This document shows positions 29,821 through 56,454 of a DNA stretch of 64,000 bases, piece by piece. Every line of letters starts with the position of its first letter. The first letter of the stretch is position 1. The translations under genes and the position numbers were made by a program. The notes beneath the pieces are model-generated. The model saw only the letters and a list, made by a program, of their open reading frames with translations, was not told the origin of the DNA and ran no database searches. This DNA is from Nibricoccus aquaticus (GTDB lineage Bacteria > Verrucomicrobiota > Verrucomicrobiia > Opitutales > Opitutaceae). The stretch is taken from NCBI RefSeq assembly GCF_002310495.1, contig NZ_CP023344.1:4295501-4359500 (forward strand). The letters run 5' to 3'.

Positions 29821-30609
29821 TCAGCGGGCGCGGTCATAGGAGTCGTGCCAGCGGTGGAGGACGAGCCATTGGAGGGCGACAACGAGGGCGACGAAGAGGA
29901 AACCGAGGGCGCAACCGATGAAGGCGGTGGCGTAGAGCTGCGGCATTTGGAAGCGCGATGAGGTGAGGACGATCTGGAAACCGAGTCCGGCGGTGCCCCC
30001 CTGAGCGTTGCCGGCGGTGTAATCGCCGACGATGGCACCGATGGGCGCGAGCGTGGCGGCGATGCGCAGGCCGGTGAAGAAATACGGCTGCGCGGTGGGA
30101 ATGCGGAGGCGGCGGAATTCGTCGAGGCGGGAGGCTTTGGAGAGGCGGAAGAAATCGAGGAGCTGCGGATCGACGGAGAGCAGGCCCTGCGTGGTGTTCA
30201 CGACGAGGGGGAAGAAGCAGATGAGGAAAGTGATGATGGCGACGCGGGCGAGGCTGGCGTCGATCACGAGGACGAGGATGGGGGCGAAGACGATGATGGG
30301 CATCATCTGCAGGGCCATGAGATAGGGGAAGAGGGCGGCGCGGGTGAGCTTGGAAAAAGCGAGTGCGATGGAAAACGCGTAACCGAGGATGACTGCGCCG
30401 AGCAGGCCGAGGGCGGCGCCGGAGGCGGTGGTGAGAGCGCCGGAGAGGAGTTCGGCGCGGTTTTCGGCGAAGGCGGCGGCGACCTGGGCGGGAGCGGGGA
30501 CGAGGTATTGGCGTTCCGGTGACAGGGAAGTGTGCAGGAGTTGCCAGAGACCGAGCAGGAGAAGGCCGGTGGCGACGGGCGCGAGCAGTGTGAGCGGACG
30601 GAGGCGCAT
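29821..30609 (-). CDS. ABC transporter permease (SsuC/TauC-like)
   Basis: A 262-residue BPD-type permease with six membrane segments. The cytoplasmic EAA loop DFFRLSKASRLDEFRRLRIPTAQPYFFTGLRIA matches SsuC/TauC/ThiX-like permeases. The start at 30609 lies two bases after the stop of the ATPase gene, so both are cotranscribed. It probably imports a sulfonate, nitrate or thiamine-precursor type compound, but no solute-binding gene lies nearby. Confidence 0.9.
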   Translation of the reverse strand: MRLRPLTLLAPVATGLLLLGLWQLLHTSLSPERQYLVPAPAQVAAAFAENRAELLSGALTTASGAALGLLGAVILGYAFSIALAFSKLTRAALFPYLMALQMMPIIVFAPILVLVIDASLARVAIITFLICFFPLVVNTTQGLLSVDPQLLDFFRLSKASRLDEFRRLRIPTAQPYFFTGLRIAATLAPIGAIVGDYTAGNAQGGTAGLGFQIVLTSSRFQMPQLYATAFIGCALGFLFVALVVALQWLVLHRWHDSYDRAR

Positions 30610-30611
30610 GG

Positions 30612-31385
30612 TCAGGCGGCGGCGGTTTCGACGGAACGGAGGGCTCGGGTGACTTCGGCGACGAGGCGGAGGTAGTCGGGGGACTGGCGGGTTTCGGCGG
30701 TGCGCGGGAAAGGGAGGTCGATGCGGAGCTCGGCGTGGATGCGGCCGGGGTTGGCGGCGAGGATGAGGATGCGGTTGGAGAGGAAGACGGCCTCGGCGAC
30801 GGAGTGGGTGACGAAGAAGGCGGTCCAAGTTTCGCGGGCGCGGATCGCGAGGAGTTCTTCGTTGAGGTGCTGGCGGGTCATTTCGTCGAGAGCGCCGAAA
30901 GGTTCGTCGAGGAGGAGGAGCGACGGGGAAAGCGTGAGGGCGCGGGCGAGGGAGACGCGCATTTTCTGTCCGCCAGAAAGTTCGCGGGGATAGGCGGCGG
31001 CTTTGTCGGTGAGGCGGACGAGCGAGAGGGCGCGGTCGCGGAGTTCGGCGCGGCGGGCGGCGGGCAGGTGGCGGAGCGTGAGGGGGAGCTCGATGTTTTT
31101 GGATACGTCGAGCCAGGGGGGCAGGGCGGGTTCCTGGAAGACGAAGGCGAGTTCTTCGGCGGTTCGGGACGGGGGCTGGCCGGAGAGTTCGAGGGTGCCA
31201 GAGGTGGGTGGCGTGAGTCCGGCGAGGAGGCGGAGGAAGGTGGATTTTCCGCAGCCGCTGGGGCCGATGAGGCTGATGAAGTCGCCGCGCTCGGCAGTGA
31301 AGGAGAGGCTGTCGAGGACGAGCGGGCCGTCGCCGAAGCGTTTGCTGACGGCGCGGGCGGCGACGATGGGCGGAGGCGTGGACAT
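30612..31385 (-). CDS. ABC transporter ATPase (SsuB/TauB-like)
   Basis: A 257-residue ATPase with Walker A GPSGCGKST (about residue 42), Q-loop VFQEPALPPWL, signature LSGGQKMRVSLARALT, Walker B LLLLDEPFGALD and switch FVTHSVAEAVFLS. It belongs to the NitT/TauT family of importers and is the first gene of a two-gene operon with its permease. The substrate is unknown without the binding protein. Confidence 0.93.
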   Translation of the reverse strand: MSTPPPIVAARAVSKRFGDGPLVLDSLSFTAERGDFISLIGPSGCGKSTFLRLLAGLTPPTSGTLELSGQPPSRTAEELAFVFQEPALPPWLDVSKNIELPLTLRHLPAARRAELRDRALSLVRLTDKAAAYPRELSGGQKMRVSLARALTLSPSLLLLDEPFGALDEMTRQHLNEELLAIRARETWTAFFVTHSVAEAVFLSNRILILAANPGRIHAELRIDLPFPRTAETRQSPDYLRLVAEVTRALRSVETAAA

Positions 31386-40668: not shown

Positions 40669-41076
40669 ATGACGACGATGACTCTTTATATGTGGATAGC
40701 GTTGGGCGGAGCACTGGGGAGCGTGGCGCGGTTTGGGGCGGCGGAGGCGGTGACGCGGGGCGTGGCCGGGGCGTTTCCGTGGGGGACGCTTGTCGTGAAT
40801 GTAGTCGGGAGTTTCGTGATCGGCTTCTTCGCGACGCTGACAGCTCCCGGCGGGCGGTGGCCGGTGGGGAGCGAGGGGCGTCATTTTTTCATGACGGGGG
40901 TGCTGGGCGGGTTCACGACGTTTTCGTCGTTTAGTTTGCAGACGCTCGGGCTGATGCAGAAGGGCGAGTGGCTGCGGGCGGGTGGGAATGTGGCGGGCTC
41001 GGTGGGGCTTTGCCTCGTGGCCGTGTGGCTGGGGCATGTGGTGGCGACGGCGATGGGGACGGCGCGGGGGGCGTGA
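40669..41076 (+). CDS. crcB: Fluoride channel CrcB/Fluc
   Basis: A 135-residue membrane protein with four helices. GGALGSVARFGA, NVVGSFVIGF and GGFTTFSSFSLQT are the Fluc family signatures; the Asn and the Phe-box line the pores of the dual-topology dimer. It exports fluoride to protect the cell. No crcB-type riboswitch is visible upstream. It stands alone, divergent from the exporter operon. Confidence 0.95.
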   Translation: MTTMTLYMWIALGGALGSVARFGAAEAVTRGVAGAFPWGTLVVNVVGSFVIGFFATLTAPGGRWPVGSEGRHFFMTGVLGGFTTFSSFSLQTLGLMQKGEWLRAGGNVAGSVGLCLVAVWLGHVVATAMGTARGA

Positions 41077-41163: not shown

Positions 41164-42225
41164 TCAGACGTCGGGGCAGAAGCCGTAGAGGAGGTCGTCG
41201 CGGCCTTTGCCGGGCCAGTTGACCTGGTCGATGCCGAAGTAGGTCATCAGCTCAAAGGTGAGTTTGTTGAGCGCGGCTTCGAAGGCGAAGATCGAGAGGA
41301 GCGCGGGTGCTTCGACGCGTAGGACGAAGGCGTCGAGGCCGACGTTGCGCAGCATGGTGAGGCTGCGACCGACGAGTTCGGCTTCGACGGGGGAATCGCC
41401 CTGGAGGATGAGCGTCGGATGCGGGTGCGCGGTCATCTGCTGGAAGGGACCGTGCGCGAATTGGAGGAAGTCGGAGATCGGCGGGCAGGGCCAGAAGACG
41501 CCTTCCATGAATTTGCACGCGAGGTTTTGCGCGAAGTCGGAGATGGGCGCGGCGGTGACGAGGTTGAAGCCTTGGGCGAAACGCGAAGTGGAGCGTTTCA
41601 TCGCGGAGACCAGGTCGGCGGGCGGTTGCGCGTCGAGGAGCGGGAGCAGTTCTGAGGCGGAGGGCTCGGTGAAGCGGCAGCTGGCGAGTTGAGCGGTGAA
41701 TTGGAGGCAGGCGAGGTAGCCGGCCATCGGGCCGACGAAGCGGATGAGCGTGGTGTATTCCTCGGCGAGGGGGAATTCGACGAGCTCGTTGCCTTCGTCG
41801 AGGAAGGTTTGGAGGAGAGCGGCGCGGTCTTTTTTGCCGGCGGCGAGGGCGGCGGCGGGCGTGGAAGCGGTGAAGAGGATCGTATGGGCGAAGTCGCGAC
41901 GGCGGCGGAGGGCGATCTGGGCGTTGGGGGAAACGCCTTGGCTGAAGACGACGAGGGTTTTGCCTTTGAAACCGGAGCGGTGTCCGTCGGTGAAGCCGGA
42001 GAGCGGGAGATAGGTCGCGGCGCGGTCGGTTTGGAAGTTGAGCAGCGTGGCTAGGTAGCGCGCGTGAGCCTCGGAGCTGCCGGTTCCGGTGACGATGAAA
42101 TGCGTGGAAGCGAGCGTGGCAGGTTTTAGCGGCGCGGGACCGCGCGACAACATGCCGCCGAGGATCGAGGGGATGCCGGCGAGGCGTTGGGCGAGTAGGC
42201 CGTGGCCGAGTGGGTCGGCGGTCAT
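41164..42225 (-). CDS. SIS-domain (phosphosugar isomerase-like) protein
   Basis: A 353-residue protein related to the isomerase half of GlmS/AgaS. The first SIS module contains FIVTGTGSSEAHARYLATLL, the phosphosugar loop, and FKGKTLVVFSQGVSPNAQIAL. The second module is more divergent (THPHPTLILQGDSPVEAELVG). It ends with FGIDQVNWPGKGRDDLLYGFC. The ATG overlaps the TGA of the tandem RibA gene (ATGA), so the two are translationally coupled. There is no glutaminase domain. The substrate is unknown; by fold it should be a phosphorylated sugar or ribosylamine. Confidence 0.82.
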   Translation of the reverse strand: MTADPLGHGLLAQRLAGIPSILGGMLSRGPAPLKPATLASTHFIVTGTGSSEAHARYLATLLNFQTDRAATYLPLSGFTDGHRSGFKGKTLVVFSQGVSPNAQIALRRRRDFAHTILFTASTPAAALAAGKKDRAALLQTFLDEGNELVEFPLAEEYTTLIRFVGPMAGYLACLQFTAQLASCRFTEPSASELLPLLDAQPPADLVSAMKRSTSRFAQGFNLVTAAPISDFAQNLACKFMEGVFWPCPPISDFLQFAHGPFQQMTAHPHPTLILQGDSPVEAELVGRSLTMLRNVGLDAFVLRVEAPALLSIFAFEAALNKLTFELMTYFGIDQVNWPGKGRDDLLYGFCPDV

Positions 42226-43838
42226 TCGCTGAGGGCGTGGTCGTCGAGGAAGATCCACTTATCGACGTCGATCTTGTGGGCATTGAGCGCGGCGGCGTAC
42301 TCGCTCTTCTTCACGAGACTCGCGGGGGAGTTCATGATCATCTGGATCTTCTCGTTGGGGATGTGGTGGCGGAGGAGAAGCATCGAGGCGTCGTAGTCGC
42401 GGCTGTCGTAGCCGACTCCGAGTTTCCGATACGCTTCGTCAGACGAGAGGACTTGGCCACTTTCGGACATCATGCGATCGGTCGCGTAAGCGCCGAAGCC
42501 GGCGCCGCGACCGTCATTGTATAGAAGAAGCATCGCGCCGACGCCGTAGGAGACGATGTGTTTGACGGACATCTTCATCTTGTCGCGATTCTCGACGGTG
42601 CGCAGCGGGAAGCGGTTGAAGAGGGATTCGCTGTGCACGCGGACGACGGGGATGTCGTAGATGCGCGGCGTGCCGTGGGTGAGGACGACGAACTCCTGGC
42701 TCGTGACGACGTCGTAATAAACGTGCACGCGGAACCAGTAGGGCGTGGTGAGGAGATCAACGATGGGGTCGGTGGGATTTTCTTTTTTGAAAGCGGTGAT
42801 GCTGTCGGTGTCGATTTTGACGAAGAAACGGTTTTCGCGGATGAGCTGGTAGCCGAGCACGAGCGGCTTCGGGCCGGCCATGTAGCGGTCGATGGATTTT
42901 TTCTGGAAGAGCTCTTTGAACTGCGCCTCGGTGAGGAGGATGTCGTTATCGACGGGCTTCATCGGGAGGAAATAACTCGCAGAGTAGATGAAGCGACGGG
43001 CCTCGGGAAGGACGTGCGGTTTGAAGGGAATGACGGGCTCGGGAGGAAGCGCACGTTTCACGGAGGTCTCGGACGGGCGTTTGAGGATGTGGCCGCCGGC
43101 GGCTTTGGACGTGAGATAAGCGAGGTTGAAGGGGGAAGGTTCGAACTCGAGGGCCTCGGTACCGGCGATGGGGACGCCTTGGGATTTCAGGGCGTCGACT
43201 TTGTCGGGGTTGTTGGTGAGGACGATGAAGGGCGCGGTGATGCCGAGGAGATAGCAGATCTGGGATATGTTGTCGTAATTGCGGTGGTCTTTTTTGAGAC
43301 CCATCGACGCGTAGGCTTGAAAGGTGGAGAGCTGGTCGAGCGAGGCTTGGACGAGCATGCGGTCGCGGGCTTTGCCGACGTAGCCGACGCCGCGGCCTTC
43401 CTGCATGAGGTAGAAGACGATGCCGTTGCCTTTTTTGGCGATGACCTCGAGCGCGCCTTCGAGCTGTTGCACGCAATCGCAGTCACAGCCGCGTAGGGTT
43501 TCGCTGGTGACGCAGGAAGAGTGGAGGCGGGTGTAGAGCGGGTTCTTCGGGTGGACGATGTCGCCGTGGGCGAGCGCGATGATGTAATGCTTGTCGATGA
43601 TGTCCTGGAAAATGTAGGCGCGGAAGGTGCCGAAGCGCATATCGAGCGCGCAGTTGGCGATGGACAGAGTCTGGCCGTAGAGCGGGCGGTCGTCGATGGA
43701 GGCGGGATTGAGGACGCTGCCGGAAGTGTGTTGGAGCGCGCGGATGAGGGCGTCGAAATCGGGAACGCCGTCGGAAGTCATGGCGATGGGTGCGGGCGCG
43801 GTGGCGGAAGCGGCGGGGAATTTGACGACCTTGGTCAT
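42222..43838 (-). CDS. Tandem GTP cyclohydrolase II-like protein
   Basis: A 538-residue protein made of two RibA-like domains. The first (about 55-235) is complete: zinc ligands C109, C120, C122 in HSSCVTSETLRGCDCDC, substrate loop QEGRGVGY (147-153), catalytic DHRNY (D184, R186) and LTNNPDKVDAL. The second (about 365-515) aligns through VRVHSESLFN, NDGRGAGF (441-448) and DSRDYDASMLLLR but has no zinc cysteines. RibA is normally about 200 residues or fused to RibB; neither is the case here. It is in an operon with a purine permease and a SIS protein, so a role in purine handling rather than riboflavin synthesis is likely. Confidence 0.85.
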   Translation of the reverse strand: MTKVVKFPAASATAPAPIAMTSDGVPDFDALIRALQHTSGSVLNPASIDDRPLYGQTLSIANCALDMRFGTFRAYIFQDIIDKHYIIALAHGDIVHPKNPLYTRLHSSCVTSETLRGCDCDCVQQLEGALEVIAKKGNGIVFYLMQEGRGVGYVGKARDRMLVQASLDQLSTFQAYASMGLKKDHRNYDNISQICYLLGITAPFIVLTNNPDKVDALKSQGVPIAGTEALEFEPSPFNLAYLTSKAAGGHILKRPSETSVKRALPPEPVIPFKPHVLPEARRFIYSASYFLPMKPVDNDILLTEAQFKELFQKKSIDRYMAGPKPLVLGYQLIRENRFFVKIDTDSITAFKKENPTDPIVDLLTTPYWFRVHVYYDVVTSQEFVVLTHGTPRIYDIPVVRVHSESLFNRFPLRTVENRDKMKMSVKHIVSYGVGAMLLLYNDGRGAGFGAYATDRMMSESGQVLSSDEAYRKLGVGYDSRDYDASMLLLRHHIPNEKIQMIMNSPASLVKKSEYAAALNAHKIDVDKWIFLDDHALSE

Positions 43839-43885
43839 GTAGGGAGAGAGGAGAGCGAAGGAGCGAGGAAGGTGTTTAAGTTGAT

Positions 43886-45229
43886 TCAGCTCCAGAGCGG
43901 TTTGAAGAGACCCCAGAAGATATGCAGGAAGAACAAGGCCGCCAGTCCATACGTGAAAGCGGAAAGGCTGCGGGCCCGGCCGGTGCAGAGGGCGATGAGC
44001 GTGAGGGCGATGACGCCCAGACCTAGACCTTCGGCGATGCTGAAGGTGAGCGGAATGCAGAGGAGGGTGACGACGGCGGGCATCGTCTCGGTGAAGTCAT
44101 CGAGTTTTATTTCGGCGACGGTTTGAAACATGAATACGCCGACTACGACGAGGGCGGGCGCAGTAGCGACGGCGGGGATGGCGAGGATCAGCGGCGTCAG
44201 GAAGAGGGCGAAGAGGAAGCAGACAGCGGTGGTCATCGCAGTGAGACCGGTGCGTCCGCCGGCTTCGACGCCGGAGGCGGATTCGATGTAGCTGACGACG
44301 GTGGATGTGCCAAAGAGCGAGCTGATGATGGCGGCGAAGGAATCGGCGACGAGGGCGCGTCCGGCTTTGGGGAGTGTGCCGTCGGGCTGGAGGAGGCCGG
44401 CGCGTTTGGTGACGCCGATCAGGGTGCCGATGTTATCGAACATATCGACGATCAGGAGGGTGATCAGGATCGGCAGGGCTTTGGCGAAATCGTTGAGAAG
44501 AAAGTCGAAGTTGAGTTTGAAGAAGACGGGCTCAGGCGAGGCGGGGAGTGAGAAGAGTCCAGTGAAAGAGGGGAGCGTGGTGACGTGGCCGCCTTTGCCG
44601 TCGGGGACGAAAACGCCGATGAGCGTGACGGCGAGAATCGAGAGGACGATGGAGCCGGGAACGCGGCGCGAGACGAGGACGGCGGTGAGGACGATGCCGA
44701 AGAAGGCGAGGGCGACGGGCGGGGAGCCGAAGTCGCCCTGGGCGACGAAGGTGGCGGGATTGGAGACGACAATGCCGGCGTTTTTGAGTCCGATGAACGC
44801 GATGAAAAGTCCGACGCCGCAGGTGATGGCGATTTTCAGTGAGTAGGGGATCGAATTGACGATCTTTTCCCGGATGCCGGTGAGCGAGAGGAGGAGGAAG
44901 AGGCAGCCGTTGACGAAGACGAGGCCGAGCGCGGATTGCCAGGGGACGCCGGCGCCGAGGCAGATCGTGTAGGTGAAGTAGGCGTTGATCCCCATGCCGG
45001 GCGCGAGGGCGAGCGGGAAGTTGGTCATGAGCGCCATGAGCGCGGTGCTGATGGCGGCAGTGAGCGCGGTGACGGTGATCAACGCGGCCTGCGGCATGCC
45101 GGTGTCCTTCAGGATGAGGGGATTCACGGCGAGGATGTAAGCCATCGCGGTGAAGGTGGTGAGACCGGCCTGAAGCTCGCGGGAGACGGTAGACTTATGC
45201 TCGGCGAGGCGGAAGAGGCGGGAAAGCAT
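43886..45229 (-). CDS. AzgA-type purine permease (NCS2/AdeP-GhxP family)
   Basis: A 447-residue permease with about 12-14 membrane segments. Family motifs: QAGLTTFTAMAYILAVNPLIL at the N-terminus, APGMGINAYFTYT, and the central FGTSTVVSYIESASGVEAGGRTGLTA. These match adenine/guanine/hypoxanthine permeases of the AzgA group. It is the first gene of the operon leading to the tandem RibA-like and SIS proteins, 47 bases upstream, and probably feeds the purine they act on. Confidence 0.93.
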   Translation of the reverse strand: MLSRLFRLAEHKSTVSRELQAGLTTFTAMAYILAVNPLILKDTGMPQAALITVTALTAAISTALMALMTNFPLALAPGMGINAYFTYTICLGAGVPWQSALGLVFVNGCLFLLLSLTGIREKIVNSIPYSLKIAITCGVGLFIAFIGLKNAGIVVSNPATFVAQGDFGSPPVALAFFGIVLTAVLVSRRVPGSIVLSILAVTLIGVFVPDGKGGHVTTLPSFTGLFSLPASPEPVFFKLNFDFLLNDFAKALPILITLLIVDMFDNIGTLIGVTKRAGLLQPDGTLPKAGRALVADSFAAIISSLFGTSTVVSYIESASGVEAGGRTGLTAMTTAVCFLFALFLTPLILAIPAVATAPALVVVGVFMFQTVAEIKLDDFTETMPAVVTLLCIPLTFSIAEGLGLGVIALTLIALCTGRARSLSAFTYGLAALFFLHIFWGLFKPLWS

Positions 45230-45424
45230 GGAGGAGGGTTTGGCTAATTTAGCATGGGCAGTGCCAGACGTGCCTGATGGGAAACCACGAAAGGCTCGAA
45301 AGAAACGAAAAGAGCGGCGGCGAGTTTAACAGCGGGAAGGACCAGCGGTACGGAGTATCGGTCGGATGACATTAAGCGTCTTCTGGCTGGTTTGCTGAAT
45401 GGGAAGCGGTCTGACTTACGGGCG

Positions 45425-46330
45425 ATGCCGAGTATCGATGCCCATGTTCACCTCTATCCGGAGGATTTGAATCGCGCGCCGGGTGTGTGGGCGACGGCGC
45501 ATGGAGAACGGCATTGGGCGATGCTTTGCACGCGGGTGCGGAAAAGCGGGCGGGCGGTGCAGGGGTTTCCGAGTGTGGATGAGTTGTTGCACGCGATGGA
45601 TGAGGCAGGCGTGGATCGTGCGGTGTTGCAGGGATGGTATTGGGAAAACCACGCCACGTGCGTCTGGCAGAATCGGTTTTATGCGGCGTGCGTGAAGGCG
45701 CATCCGGACAGGTTGAGTGCGTTCGCGACATTGCATGCGGGCGCGGGACGCGAGGCGGTGATCTCCGAGGTGCGGCGCGTGAAGGCGGAGGGGTTTTGCG
45801 GGATCGGGGAGTTGTCACCGCATTCGCAGGGATTTTCCGTCGAAGATGAAACGTGGCGGGCGGTGCTAGAACTAGCGGGTGAGTTGCGGCTGCCGGTGAA
45901 TCTGCACGTGACGGAGCCGGAGGGGAGGAATTATCCGGGGAAAATCGCGACGCCGCTGGGGGATTTTGTGCGGATGGCGAAGGCGCATCCGGCGACGGTG
46001 TTTATTTTAGCGCACTGGGGGGCGCGGTTGCCGCTGGACGCTGAGTTCGGAGCGGAAGCGCGAGCGCTGAAAAATCTTTATTATGACACGGCGGCATCAC
46101 CGTTGATTTATCCGCGGGCAGATGTGCGCGAGATGCTGGGGCAGTTTGGGGCGGAGCGGGTGTTGTTCGGGACGGATTATCCGCTGGAGCTTTTTCCGAA
46201 TGGGGAGGGCGAAGGAGGCGCGGGGACGATGCGCGGATTTGTGGATGCGTTTCGCGCGGCCGGTTTGGGCGAGGCGGAGTGCGCGGCGGTGCTCGGCGGC
46301 AATGCGGCGCGGGTGATTGGGCTACGGTGA
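45425..46330 (+). CDS. Metal-dependent amidohydrolase (TIM-barrel, amidohydrolase-2 type)
   Basis: A 301-residue hydrolase. The metal-binding motif IDAHVHLYP is at the N-terminus. NLHVTEPEG, ILAHWGARLP and LFGTDYPLE supply further His and Asp ligands. This layout fits ACMSD/gamma-resorcylate decarboxylase-like and related lactonases. It is divergent from the purine permease operon and could share its regulation, but no direct link is shown. The start at MPSIDAHVHL is certain, as the HxH motif must be near the N-terminus. Confidence 0.85.
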   Translation: MPSIDAHVHLYPEDLNRAPGVWATAHGERHWAMLCTRVRKSGRAVQGFPSVDELLHAMDEAGVDRAVLQGWYWENHATCVWQNRFYAACVKAHPDRLSAFATLHAGAGREAVISEVRRVKAEGFCGIGELSPHSQGFSVEDETWRAVLELAGELRLPVNLHVTEPEGRNYPGKIATPLGDFVRMAKAHPATVFILAHWGARLPLDAEFGAEARALKNLYYDTAASPLIYPRADVREMLGQFGAERVLFGTDYPLELFPNGEGEGGAGTMRGFVDAFRAAGLGEAECAAVLGGNAARVIGLR

Positions 46331-53782: not shown

Positions 53783-54580
53783 TCAGCCTACGAGCAGCGT
53801 GATCGCGATGGTCTCGTAGGGAGTAGCGGCGAGTGTGGCGCGGTAGTCGTCGATGCTCGCAAAAGTGTGCTGCTTGAGGCGGCGGGCTTTGAACGGGAAG
53901 GTCAGTTCCTTTTCGCGAAAGGGAGACGGTGTGATTTTGAATACGCCAGGGCTTTCCGGGGTGCAGGAGAAACTGTGGAGTTGTCCGGCACGATCGGTGT
54001 GGCTGTGCCGAAGTGTGCGCGGTTGTTCGTAGCCGGCGCAGGCGATGAGCGAGAGGTTGTCGCAGGTCTGGAGAAAGCGGAACGCGCGGTCGAGGGCGCC
54101 CTGGCTGGCGTTGAGGCGGGCGGCCATTTCGAGCTGGAAAGCGCGTTGGGCGGCCACGAAGTCGGCGTGCAGCGGCCGGTGATCGGGGCGGATCGTCGAG
54201 AGATCGGCCTGCTCGGTGAGGAGGTTGACGGTGTGCATCGAGACGACGATGGCTGCGAAGGGATTGCGCTCGGCGACGGCGGCGGTCGCTTCGCCGCGCA
54301 CGCGCAGATAGGCGGGCAGGTCGATCTCTTCAAAGGCGGCGTAACTGCCGACGAGGTCTTTGGTGAAGGCTTCGGGGATGGCGGCTTTGGTGAGAAACGG
54401 CGCGGCATCGCGGGCGGCCCAGCCGTCGTCGTGCGCAGCGACGGCGAAGAGAATGTCGGCGCGCGGCTCGGGGGATGCGAACTGGGCGTTGCCCCAGGCT
54501 TCGGCGAAAAGACCGGCGAGGCGCGCGTGTTCGCCGTGCGTCACCAAGAGCCAGCCGTCGGGCAGTTCCTTGCGGATCAT
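53783..54580 (-). CDS. DUF3891 family protein
   Basis: A 265-residue soluble protein. LLVTHGEHARLAGLFAEAWG at the N-terminus and VAAHDDGWAARDAAP are the DUF3891 pattern; further His and Asp residues (IVVSMHTVNLL, CDNLSLIACAG) suggest an HD-domain-like helical metal site. The family's reaction is unknown. It lies 10 bases upstream of nothing on its own strand, following the amidase gene by 10 bases, so the two may be cotranscribed. Confidence 0.8.
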   Translation of the reverse strand: MIRKELPDGWLLVTHGEHARLAGLFAEAWGNAQFASPEPRADILFAVAAHDDGWAARDAAPFLTKAAIPEAFTKDLVGSYAAFEEIDLPAYLRVRGEATAAVAERNPFAAIVVSMHTVNLLTEQADLSTIRPDHRPLHADFVAAQRAFQLEMAARLNASQGALDRAFRFLQTCDNLSLIACAGYEQPRTLRHSHTDRAGQLHSFSCTPESPGVFKITPSPFREKELTFPFKARRLKQHTFASIDDYRATLAATPYETIAITLLVG

Positions 54581-54590
54581 GCCTGCTGGT

Positions 54591-55889
54591 TTAGCAGGAC
54601 GCGGACCGTTTTAGCGCCCAGCTGATGGCGGGGCTTTGCGGTGTGGGAGCGATGACCTGGAGGCCGCTGCTCATGCCATCGGGGAGCGTGATGGGGATGG
54701 TGAGCACCGCGAGGCCACCGAGGCTGGCGGGTGTGGTGAGGGCGAGCAGGCGGTTGCGATTTTCGAGTGTGCAGTCGGCTTTTTTGAGCGCGGGAAACGG
54801 GGTCGCGGGCATCACGAGAAAATCGTGCGTGGTGAAATACGTCTGCCAGGCGGCGCGGACGGCGTTCCATTTGACGTGTGCGGCGTCTAGCTGGGCGGGC
54901 GACCAGCGGCGGCCGCGATCGATCCGGGCCCAGACGTCTTTGCCATAGAGATCGCGATGCGTGTCGAGCCAGGCGGCGTGGACGCCGTAGGCCTCGGTGC
55001 TTTGGAGCGTGGAGTAGGCGTTGGCGGCGTCGTTGAACGCGTGCGCGAGGGCGTCGCGTGTGGCGGTGTCGGCGGGGGCGGCGAATTTCTCGGCGGCGAG
55101 TTTCAGCGAGGTGGAGACGCTGGCGTCGGCTGTCTGGCCGAGAGCTGCGAAATCGAGCCAGGCGCCGCGGGGTTCGCGTTCGAGCACGGGCGGTTTGCCG
55201 AGGAGGTAGCGGTTAACGAGGGTGAGATCGGCGGGATTGCGCGTGAACCAGCCGGCGGCATCGAAGCTAGGAGCGAGCGGAAAGGCGTCTTCGATGTAGG
55301 TATCCTTAGGCGTGAGACGCAGGCCGTAGAGTCCGCAGAAGGCGGCGGGGACGCGGATGGAACCGCCGGTGTCGGTGCCGACGGCCAGCGGCACGATGCC
55401 GGCAGCGACGGCAGCCGCCGAACCGCTGCTGGAGCCGCCGCTGGTGCGGCCGGGATAGCGCGGGTGTTCACAGTCGCCGTGATGCGGGTTTTCGCCGGTG
55501 AGGCCGTAGGCGAATTCGTGGAGGTGGGTTTTTGCGGCGAGAATGGTGCCGAGGCCGCGGAGAGAATGGGGGAGTTTGCTGTCGCTGCGGCGGATCGGAA
55601 GGATGCCAGGCGTGAAATTCGAGCCGGCATTCATCGGCTGGCCTGCGGTGAAGAAGATGTCTTTCAGGACGTAGGGGACACCGGCGAGCGGGGCAATGGT
55701 GCCGGCGACGCGGGCGAAGGTCGCGGCCATTTCGGCCTGCGAGCTGAGCGTGGCGAAGGCGGCGCGTTGCTGATCGTCGGGCAGAATAGAACGCAGGCGA
55801 CGAGCGATTTCGCGCGCCGCGCTGGCGGAATCGCCCGCTGCGAGTGCCTGCCACTCGGCCATGGTGATGGCGGAGAAAAGAGACGACAT
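54591..55889 (-). CDS. Amidase-signature hydrolase
   Basis: A 432-residue amidase of the GatA/AtzF superfamily. The Ser-cisSer-Lys triad is present: Lys in PYVLKDIFF, cis-Ser in TSGGSSSGSAAAVAAG and nucleophile Ser in GTDTGGSIRVPAAFCG. It hydrolyses an amide or carbamate bond in the cytoplasm. There is no GatB/C context and the C-terminus is short, so a catabolic amidase is more likely than tRNA amidation. The start at 55889 is the first with family-like sequence. It is divergent from ridA. Confidence 0.9.
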   Translation of the reverse strand: MSSLFSAITMAEWQALAAGDSASAAREIARRLRSILPDDQQRAAFATLSSQAEMAATFARVAGTIAPLAGVPYVLKDIFFTAGQPMNAGSNFTPGILPIRRSDSKLPHSLRGLGTILAAKTHLHEFAYGLTGENPHHGDCEHPRYPGRTSGGSSSGSAAAVAAGIVPLAVGTDTGGSIRVPAAFCGLYGLRLTPKDTYIEDAFPLAPSFDAAGWFTRNPADLTLVNRYLLGKPPVLEREPRGAWLDFAALGQTADASVSTSLKLAAEKFAAPADTATRDALAHAFNDAANAYSTLQSTEAYGVHAAWLDTHRDLYGKDVWARIDRGRRWSPAQLDAAHVKWNAVRAAWQTYFTTHDFLVMPATPFPALKKADCTLENRNRLLALTTPASLGGLAVLTIPITLPDGMSSGLQVIAPTPQSPAISWALKRSASC

Positions 55890-55992: not shown

Positions 55993-56454
55993 ATGAATCC
56001 CGAAGCGAAACTCGCCGAACTTGGTTTGAAACTGCCCGCCGCGCCCGCCGCCGGTGGCAACTATGTGCCGACGGTGCGCGTGGGCAATCTGCTCTACTGC
56101 GCGGGCACGATCAGCACGCTCGATGGGAAGATGACGCACGAGGGTCAGGTGGGCAAAGAGCAGACGGTGCAGACGGGCTACGAGTCGGCGAAGATCTGCG
56201 CTTTGAATACGCTCACGAACATCAAGGCGGCGGCGGGCTCGCTCGATCAGGTCGCGCGCTTCGTGTATGTCGGCGGTTACGTGAACGCGATCAGCGGCTT
56301 CCCAGATGCGCCTGCGGTGATCAACGGCGCGAGCGATCTGTTCGTCGCGGTGTTTGGCGAAGCCGGGAAACACGCGCGCGCCGCGGTGGCGGTGGCCGGG
56401 CTGCCGAAGAACTCGACGGCCGAAGTGCAGGTGATCGTGGAGTTGAAGGGCTGA
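55993..56454 (+). CDS. RidA family protein (YjgF/UK114)
   Basis: A 153-residue protein of the RidA superfamily in the longer subgroup that starts with a LAELGLKLP-type segment. VRVGNLLYCAGTIS, the GKEQTVQTGYESAKICALN helix and the C-terminal AVAVAGLPKNSTAEVQVIVEL are typical. The catalytic Arg of canonical RidA (in an IARP-type motif) is not present at its usual place, where the sequence reads ARAAVAVAGLP. Such subgroup members may have lost imine deaminase activity. Divergent from the amidase. Confidence 0.9.
   Translation: MNPEAKLAELGLKLPAAPAAGGNYVPTVRVGNLLYCAGTISTLDGKMTHEGQVGKEQTVQTGYESAKICALNTLTNIKAAAGSLDQVARFVYVGGYVNAISGFPDAPAVINGASDLFVAVFGEAGKHARAAVAVAGLPKNSTAEVQVIVELKG

Follow-up and report, generated by a model that had tools for sequence, protein, structure and literature searches.

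A 64,000-nucleotide stretch of Nibricoccus aquaticus DNA (contig NZ_CP023344.1, positions 4,295,501 to 4,359,500; hereafter the window) carries on its minus strand three tightly packed genes, which encode an AzgA-type purine base permease, a protein with two GTP cyclohydrolase II (GCHII) domains in tandem (TRIB) and a protein of the double-SIS phosphosugar-isomerase fold (SIS). We consider it fairly probable that these three genes are the core, responsible for ring opening, of a module for purine catabolism independent of xanthine dehydrogenase (XDH), for which we infer the substrate, each reaction and the order of the reactions.

Gene order and protein features of the operon

The permease gene is separated from that of TRIB by 47 bases, and the stop codon of TRIB (TGA, 42224-42222) meets the start codon of SIS (ATG, 42225-42223) in an ATGA overlap, confirming the positions and spacing given in a preliminary description of the window. 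Because of this overlap, the 353-residue frame (Table 1) was taken as SIS and a longer open reading frame from 42258 was regarded as a mechanical one. The permease, TRIB and SIS genes are a single minus-strand operon. The permease was 36% identical over 427 residues to the E. coli guanine/hypoxanthine transporter GhxP (245 bits) and had no meaningful match to UraA (23 bits), in agreement with its earlier assignment to the AzgA type. A scan of the window with Rfam at gathering thresholds returned one tRNA only and no riboswitch.

The family PF00925 matched TRIB twice (174.7 bits for the whole protein, 130.8 bits for domain 1 and 49.5 bits for domain 2), as the two GCHII-like domains described earlier in this 538-residue protein had implied. 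Domain 1 (approximately residues 55-258) is of the catalytic type and carries the zinc cysteines C109, C120 and C122, an EGRG motif, D184 and R186. Domain 2 (approximately residues 275-535) retains NDGRG and DSRDY and contains no cysteine; all of these residues had been read correctly from the start. A single comparison of the two domains gave 28% identity across 119 residues (E 4e-12), as would be expected from an internal duplication. C109, C120 and C122 align with C54, C65 and C67 of E. coli RibA, and D184 and R186 with its D126 and R128; the three cysteines, D184, R186 and the TNN..K loop were invariant in all 86 rows of the alignment. A model of domain 1 superposed on E. coli RibA (2bz0) with Z 18.3 and rmsd 1.9 over 169 aligned residues. 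Two RibA residues are replaced in TRIB, Tyr105, which has a role in RibA catalysis, by Arg160 and Glu53 by Ser108, and both replacements occur without exception in the 86 rows. TRIB scored 138 bits against the curated equivalog_domain model TIGR00505, under its cut-off of 205.85 bits, and passed the subfamily model NF001591 with 174 bits (cut-off 148).

No Pfam or NCBIfam model matched the SIS protein at E 0.1 and a sequence-only search of the PDB with its profile returned nothing at E 1, for which reason a fold search was used. The model of SIS (pLDDT 91.8) matched double-SIS phosphosugar isomerases at Z about 28, so that the SIS-domain identity first proposed was upheld despite the lack of family matches. 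The matches were NagB-II (8fdb, Z 28.1), E. coli GlmS (7dnr, Z 28.0) and FrlB (8glr, Z 21.3), and Foldseek also listed FraB. SIS resembles the GlmS isomerase domain, NagB-II, FrlB and FraB in the whole double-SIS fold (Z 21 to 28) and differs from them in its low identity (10 to 14% to 8fdb, 7dnr and 8glr) and in having a cyclohydrolase as its genomic partner. Residues K238, E241 and H258 were invariant in 36 rows and fell on K485, E488 and H504 of GlmS in a weak, non-significant profile alignment (E 0.11), in which the catalytic Lys/Glu/His positions appear to be kept.

TRIB neighbourhoods and co-occurrence

In a scan of 84,980 species genomes 97 relatives of TRIB were found, and the best 80 of the 97 supplied the loci compared here. 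Where the title names a group, the relatives belong to the Verrucomicrobiota or the wider Planctomycetes-Verrucomicrobia-Chlamydiae (PVC) group; two titles say "bacterium" alone. TRIB was not found in plasmids at E 1e-40. The preliminary description had called for a genome search for the tandem-RibA and SIS pair and had named a neighbourhood not conserved elsewhere as evidence against a joint pathway. The neighbourhood proved to be conserved: of the 66 named loci reaching far enough, 34 have SIS immediately after TRIB, and of 69 named loci 17 have an AzgA permease immediately before it. In 15 of the 69, a gene for an Amidohydro_2 family hydrolase (AMH) runs on the opposite strand and ends no more than 1.8 kb upstream of TRIB. 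At least one purine or hydrolase partner accompanied TRIB in 50 of the 58 loci of 12 kb or more.

Neighbouring genes were clustered, representatives of part of the recurrent families were scanned against family models and homologues were mapped by tblastn. The neighbours of TRIB found in this way were a TonB receptor, an adenosine deaminase (with secretion signals recognised by eye), NUP, a PNP-superfamily protein, an adenine deaminase and an HGPRT-like transferase (95 bits, under the cut-off of 150), together with an AtzE-like amidase, RidA, FmdA, two creatininase-family proteins, a FAH-type hydrolase and a DUF3891 protein, the last in 9 of the 58 loci of 12 kb or more. Many module genes surround TRIB in five loci (L112, L106, L024, L042 and L060). 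In other TRIB genomes they also occur at a second place away from TRIB (L144, L146, L147; L165-L167), where three clusters (L144, L146 and L165) hold the same hydrolases with an adenine deaminase and a TonB receptor, and two of the three hold NUP and PNP as well. In N. aquaticus, FmdA (L143) and a 406-residue amidohydrolase, AHYD406 (L163), are encoded outside the window. Beyond the three genes first described, the window itself contains four recurrent genes of the module, those for DUF3891, the amidase, RidA and the divergent AMH (Table 1). The amidase is AtzE-like by way of its L112 homologue, whose match to TIGR02715 is below cut-off.

Table 1. Positions of the operon genes, of further module genes in the window and of CTP synthase genes next to TRIB in other loci
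Feature	Position	Strand	Evidence
AzgA-type (NCS2) purine base permease; first gene of the operon	43886-45229	-	PF00860, 159.3 bits
TRIB, tandem GTP-cyclohydrolase-II protein, 538 aa	42222-43838	-	PF00925 twice
SIS, double-SIS phosphosugar-isomerase-fold protein, 353 aa; candidate deglycase/isomerase	41164-42225	-	sequence and model
AMH, Amidohydro_2 family hydrolase, divergent from the operon	45392-46330	+	PF04909, 98.6 bits
DUF3891 protein, behind the amidase	53783-54580	-	PF13030, 159.4 bits; tblastn, 45% identity to L106 homologue
Module amidase	54591-55889	-	PF01425, 192.2 bits; tblastn, 50% identity to the L041 amidase that immediately precedes TRIB
RidA/YjgF-family protein of the module, divergent from the amidase	55993-56454	+	PF14588, 92.1 bits; tblastn, 74% identity to L041 homologue
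CTP synthase gene after TRIB	L090, L094 (L094:11556-13166), L095, L096, L097, L100		

Co-occurrence was counted in one fixed set of 194 genomes from the phylum. Full-length TRIB was present in 11 of the 194 genomes and in 7 of the 18 of its own family, the set of 11 spanning three family-level groups (f1, f2 and f20); in five further genomes one RibA-like domain only was matched, at 34-37% identity. SIS was present in 10 genomes, all among the 11 with TRIB, and AHYD406 in exactly the same 10, that is, in the TRIB set minus one genome (G080). With kinship ignored, P was 7e-16 for the co-occurrence of TRIB with SIS and 6e-17 for that of AHYD406 with SIS. Two of the 10 genomes (G045 and G157) have the AHYD406 gene near TRIB; in the other eight it sits on a different contig or at a distance of more than 400 kb. 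In N. aquaticus, AHYD406 and TRIB are at C1:171738 and C1:4337725, respectively. The co-occurrence of separate, mostly unlinked genes argues for one function. FmdA and the amidase, searched in TRIB-positive genomes only, were each present in 10 of the 11.

A chance neighbourhood was ruled out by the conserved gene order and the co-occurrence. Additional copies of TRIB were also seen: G045 has a second, fragmented one (L025:6953-8309) beside AMH and RidA homologues, and two metagenome-assembled genomes (MAGs), Rariglobus sp. C_No_T20_C_bin.92 and Opitutaceae UBA4094, have two TRIB loci each (L050/L060 and L049/L053, respectively).

Predicted purine-catabolic route

The purine link of the TRIB module is well supported through its conserved context and co-occurrence. 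Those of its inputs that can be identified are purine genes. The purine interpretation of the preliminary description thereby gained strong support from genes beyond the original three, and is qualified by a possible riboflavin role of TRIB, which is taken up below. In the predicted route, the AzgA permease would take up free purine bases. Further input would come, in relatives of N. aquaticus, from genes lying nearby, which encode outer-membrane receptors, an adenosine deaminase that appears to be secreted, proteins of the nucleoside phosphorylase type and adenine deaminase. An HGPRT-type transferase would turn the base into a nucleotide. Domain 1 of TRIB would then open the imidazole ring by hydrolysis, its substrate being a guanine-type nucleotide; the almost complete set of RibA catalytic residues makes GTP the likeliest one. 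RibA acts on a guanine nucleotide to give formate and a pyrimidine carrying ribosylamine 5-phosphate. The product of TRIB is predicted to be such a pyrimidine, and domain 2 would serve a structural or regulatory purpose.

Enzymes of the SIS fold isomerise or cleave aminosugar phosphates, and the joint presence of TRIB and SIS in an operon suggests release of the pyrimidine by SIS. Like the FraB/FrlB deglycases, SIS would open and isomerise the aminosugar phosphate, yielding a free aminopyrimidine and a pentose phosphate that would return to phosphoribosyl pyrophosphate (PRPP); action on a ribosyl phosphate fits the modelled fold. Amidohydrolases, creatininases, formamidase, RidA, the amidase and the FAH-type hydrolase would finish the breakdown, these later steps being an ordered guess. 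That purines are degraded in this way, with a tandem cyclohydrolase opening the ring on the nucleotide rather than on the free base and a SIS deglycase recovering the sugar, has in our estimate an even chance of being correct. The route predicts formate, a free aminopyrimidine and pentose phosphate as the products of TRIB and SIS acting together on GTP.

The TRIB-SIS pairing and the SIS fold, which fit the removal of a sugar phosphate, would also suit overflow or damage control, in which SIS destroys surplus ribosylaminopyrimidine phosphates released by TRIB. Such a removal is ascribed in riboflavin synthesis to the N-glycosidase COG3236/YbiA. This role is quite unlikely, as it would leave the permease, the adenine and adenosine deaminases, the nucleoside uptake proteins and the hydrolase set unexplained.

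The logic of the predicted route resembles that of uracil catabolism (URC), in which a cyclohydrolase of the RibA family (URC1/UTP cyclohydrolase) takes part in nucleobase breakdown and a phosphoribosyltransferase acts before it. UTP cyclohydrolase (PDB 7eev and 7ej3) is a fold relative of TRIB (Z 14) and likewise has Arg at the site of E. coli Tyr105 (ARKR in 7ej3/7eev, by profile alignment). The change from Tyr105 to Arg, common to the two, may alter the end product. A Streptomyces GCHII with methionine in place of the same tyrosine reportedly gives a formylated product, although a literature search for that study found nothing; were the TRIB product formylated, the creatininase and formamidase partners would gain a role. 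Unlike the URC pathway, the TRIB module has purine rather than uracil partners, its cyclohydrolase is a tandem GCHII with the catalytic half first and the RibA-type LTNNP loop kept, and the partner is SIS; URC4/DUF1688 is the partner in URC.

It is highly improbable, in spite of the common fold and arginine, that the operon encodes a uracil pathway with a diverged URC1: TRIB is far nearer in sequence to RibA (174 bits against NF001591) than to NF005536 (PRK07198), which presumably covers URC1 (22.1 bits, far under the cut-off of 403), its permease is AzgA-like and not UraA-like, and its partners are purine enzymes. A pure URC reading was ruled out by the NF005536 score.

Several observations weigh against purine catabolism by TRIB and SIS. 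A homologue of the HGPRT-like partner was present in only 5 of the 11 TRIB genomes, and none was found in N. aquaticus itself at E 1e-10. SIS is absent altogether from 10 of the 25 checked genomes with a SIS-less locus. The SIS-less TRIB genomes include Geminisphaera TAV2 and Ereboglobus, and several are MAGs; in one of the SIS-less loci (L034) the contig seems to end inside the SIS start. Ereboglobus (G080) has kept TRIB and AzgA and lacks SIS, AHYD406, FmdA and the amidase. Three SIS-less genomes have a TRIB locus without any partner (L037, L039 and L072), as does L095 when viewed at the level of the locus only. In the symbiont Candidatus Synoicihabitans palmerolidicus (L061, 6441-17500) the permease, amidase, TonB receptor and adenine/adenosine deaminase genes are in two to three pieces each, and TRIB and SIS are single open frames despite these broken purine genes. 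On the supporting side, canonical xdhB over the cut-off and uricase were each found in none of the 11 TRIB genomes. The absence of xdhB is context, not proof: it was not significant alone (P 0.70, or 0.29 when the count is widened to 20 genomes at 340 bits or more), and weaker molybdenum-hydroxylase (MoCoBD_1) relatives occur in 3 of the 11. When a shared upstream DNA motif was sought for four separate units of the N. aquaticus genome, the best 14-mer was no better than those from shuffles.

The purine-catabolic reading also does not explain a CTP synthase gene that, in six loci of one group (Table 1), follows TRIB in the same orientation at a distance of no more than about 135 bases. This arrangement would favour a biosynthetic cluster producing a pyrimidine- or pterin-derived compound from GTP, and GCHII paralogues do start several biosynthetic routes of such kind. 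A cluster of this type is very unlikely, the partners that were family-scanned, which do not include all recurrent families, being mainly proteins of uptake, deamination and amide hydrolysis.

Riboflavin synthesis and relation to known pathways

The strongest rival to the purine-catabolic reading is that TRIB is a plain riboflavin GCHII, a displaced RibA, with SIS and the permease as salvage neighbours in no joint pathway. PF00925 has three matches in the N. aquaticus genome, namely the two domains of TRIB and the GCHII half of a RibB fusion (L002:754-1965; C1 about 1158037-1159248), which has neither zinc cysteines nor the EGR motif. Domain 1 of TRIB is the only zinc-cysteine GCHII found in this genome, a further point to be set against a purely catabolic role. 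The preliminary description had regarded the lack of a separate riboflavin RibA, combined with restoration of riboflavin synthesis by the TRIB gene, as counting against its proposal; the first half of this agrees with what was found in the genome. Verrucomicrobiota of other families have a RibBA with cysteines (L016-L019), and TRIB perhaps let RibBA decay. Taken with the persistence of TRIB in genomes without SIS, three of them without any partner at the locus, and its open frame in L061 beside decaying purine genes, the absence of another zinc-cysteine GCHII suggests that TRIB may supply riboflavin too. TRIB may thus also, or only, serve riboflavin synthesis.

As the whole explanation, a displaced riboflavin RibA is nevertheless unlikely. 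Riboflavin is a general need, whereas full-length TRIB is confined to the 11 genomes of the phylum sample and 7 of 18 in its own family. No RibH or riboflavin synthase match was returned by tblastn in the window or in any TRIB locus examined, and RibD matched in one TRIB locus only (L070, about 8 kb from TRIB). The earlier statement that no rib genes are adjacent indeed holds within the window for RibD, RibH and riboflavin synthase (E. coli queries, E 1e-6). The exact co-occurrence of TRIB with SIS and AHYD406, G080 excepted, and the arginine at the Tyr105 site in every alignment row also speak against it. TRIB is like the RibA of riboflavin synthesis in its fold, zinc cysteines, EGR motif, D/R pair and LTNNPxK loop, and unlike it in the Tyr105-to-Arg and Glu53-to-Ser changes, a three-residue insertion, a second degenerate domain and its purine-gene context. 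A riboflavin role would leave the catabolic reading standing, because the shared product would be a branch point.

If the purine-catabolic reading is true, the first intermediate of the route would be shared with riboflavin synthesis, and neither molybdenum nor oxygen would be needed. Purine use by these Verrucomicrobiota without canonical xanthine dehydrogenase would be explained, and the URC logic of phosphoribosylation followed by ring opening by a RibA relative would extend from pyrimidines to purines. A SIS family missed by Pfam and NCBIfam would gain a function, and DUF3891, of which no mention was found in the literature searched, would be placed in a pathway.

Three purine routes (oxidative, xanthinase and reductive) and the URC pyrimidine route are summarised in PMC12507026, where the UTP cyclohydrolase study is cited for the latter; the present route would add a further one to these three purine-degrading routes. 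It would have the same presumed input as the XDH-uricase, xanthinase and reductive uric acid (yanthine) routes, and Amidohydro_1 proteins occur in the reductive route as well (PMC12507026). Unlike these, it would open the ring on the nucleotide, and neither canonical xdhB over the cut-off nor uricase was found in the 11 TRIB genomes. A RibA-type purine route does not appear in the introduction of PMC12507026, nor was such a pathway described in the literature searched, as judged by titles and the beginnings of abstracts in a collection that does not cover most subscription journals. Within the literature covered, the pathway itself would be new if it is confirmed.

Two further features were noted near the genes discussed. 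A CrcB fluoride channel gene (window 40669-41076) is convergent with the SIS gene and has no homologue in the other loci. Near AHYD406 in N. aquaticus is a gene for an NMT1/THI5-like binding protein (PF09084; L163:7895-8935), and the same clusters' ABC permease/ATPase genes are present in the window (30001-31385) and in several TRIB loci, L057 and L058 among them; together these possibly constitute a further uptake system.

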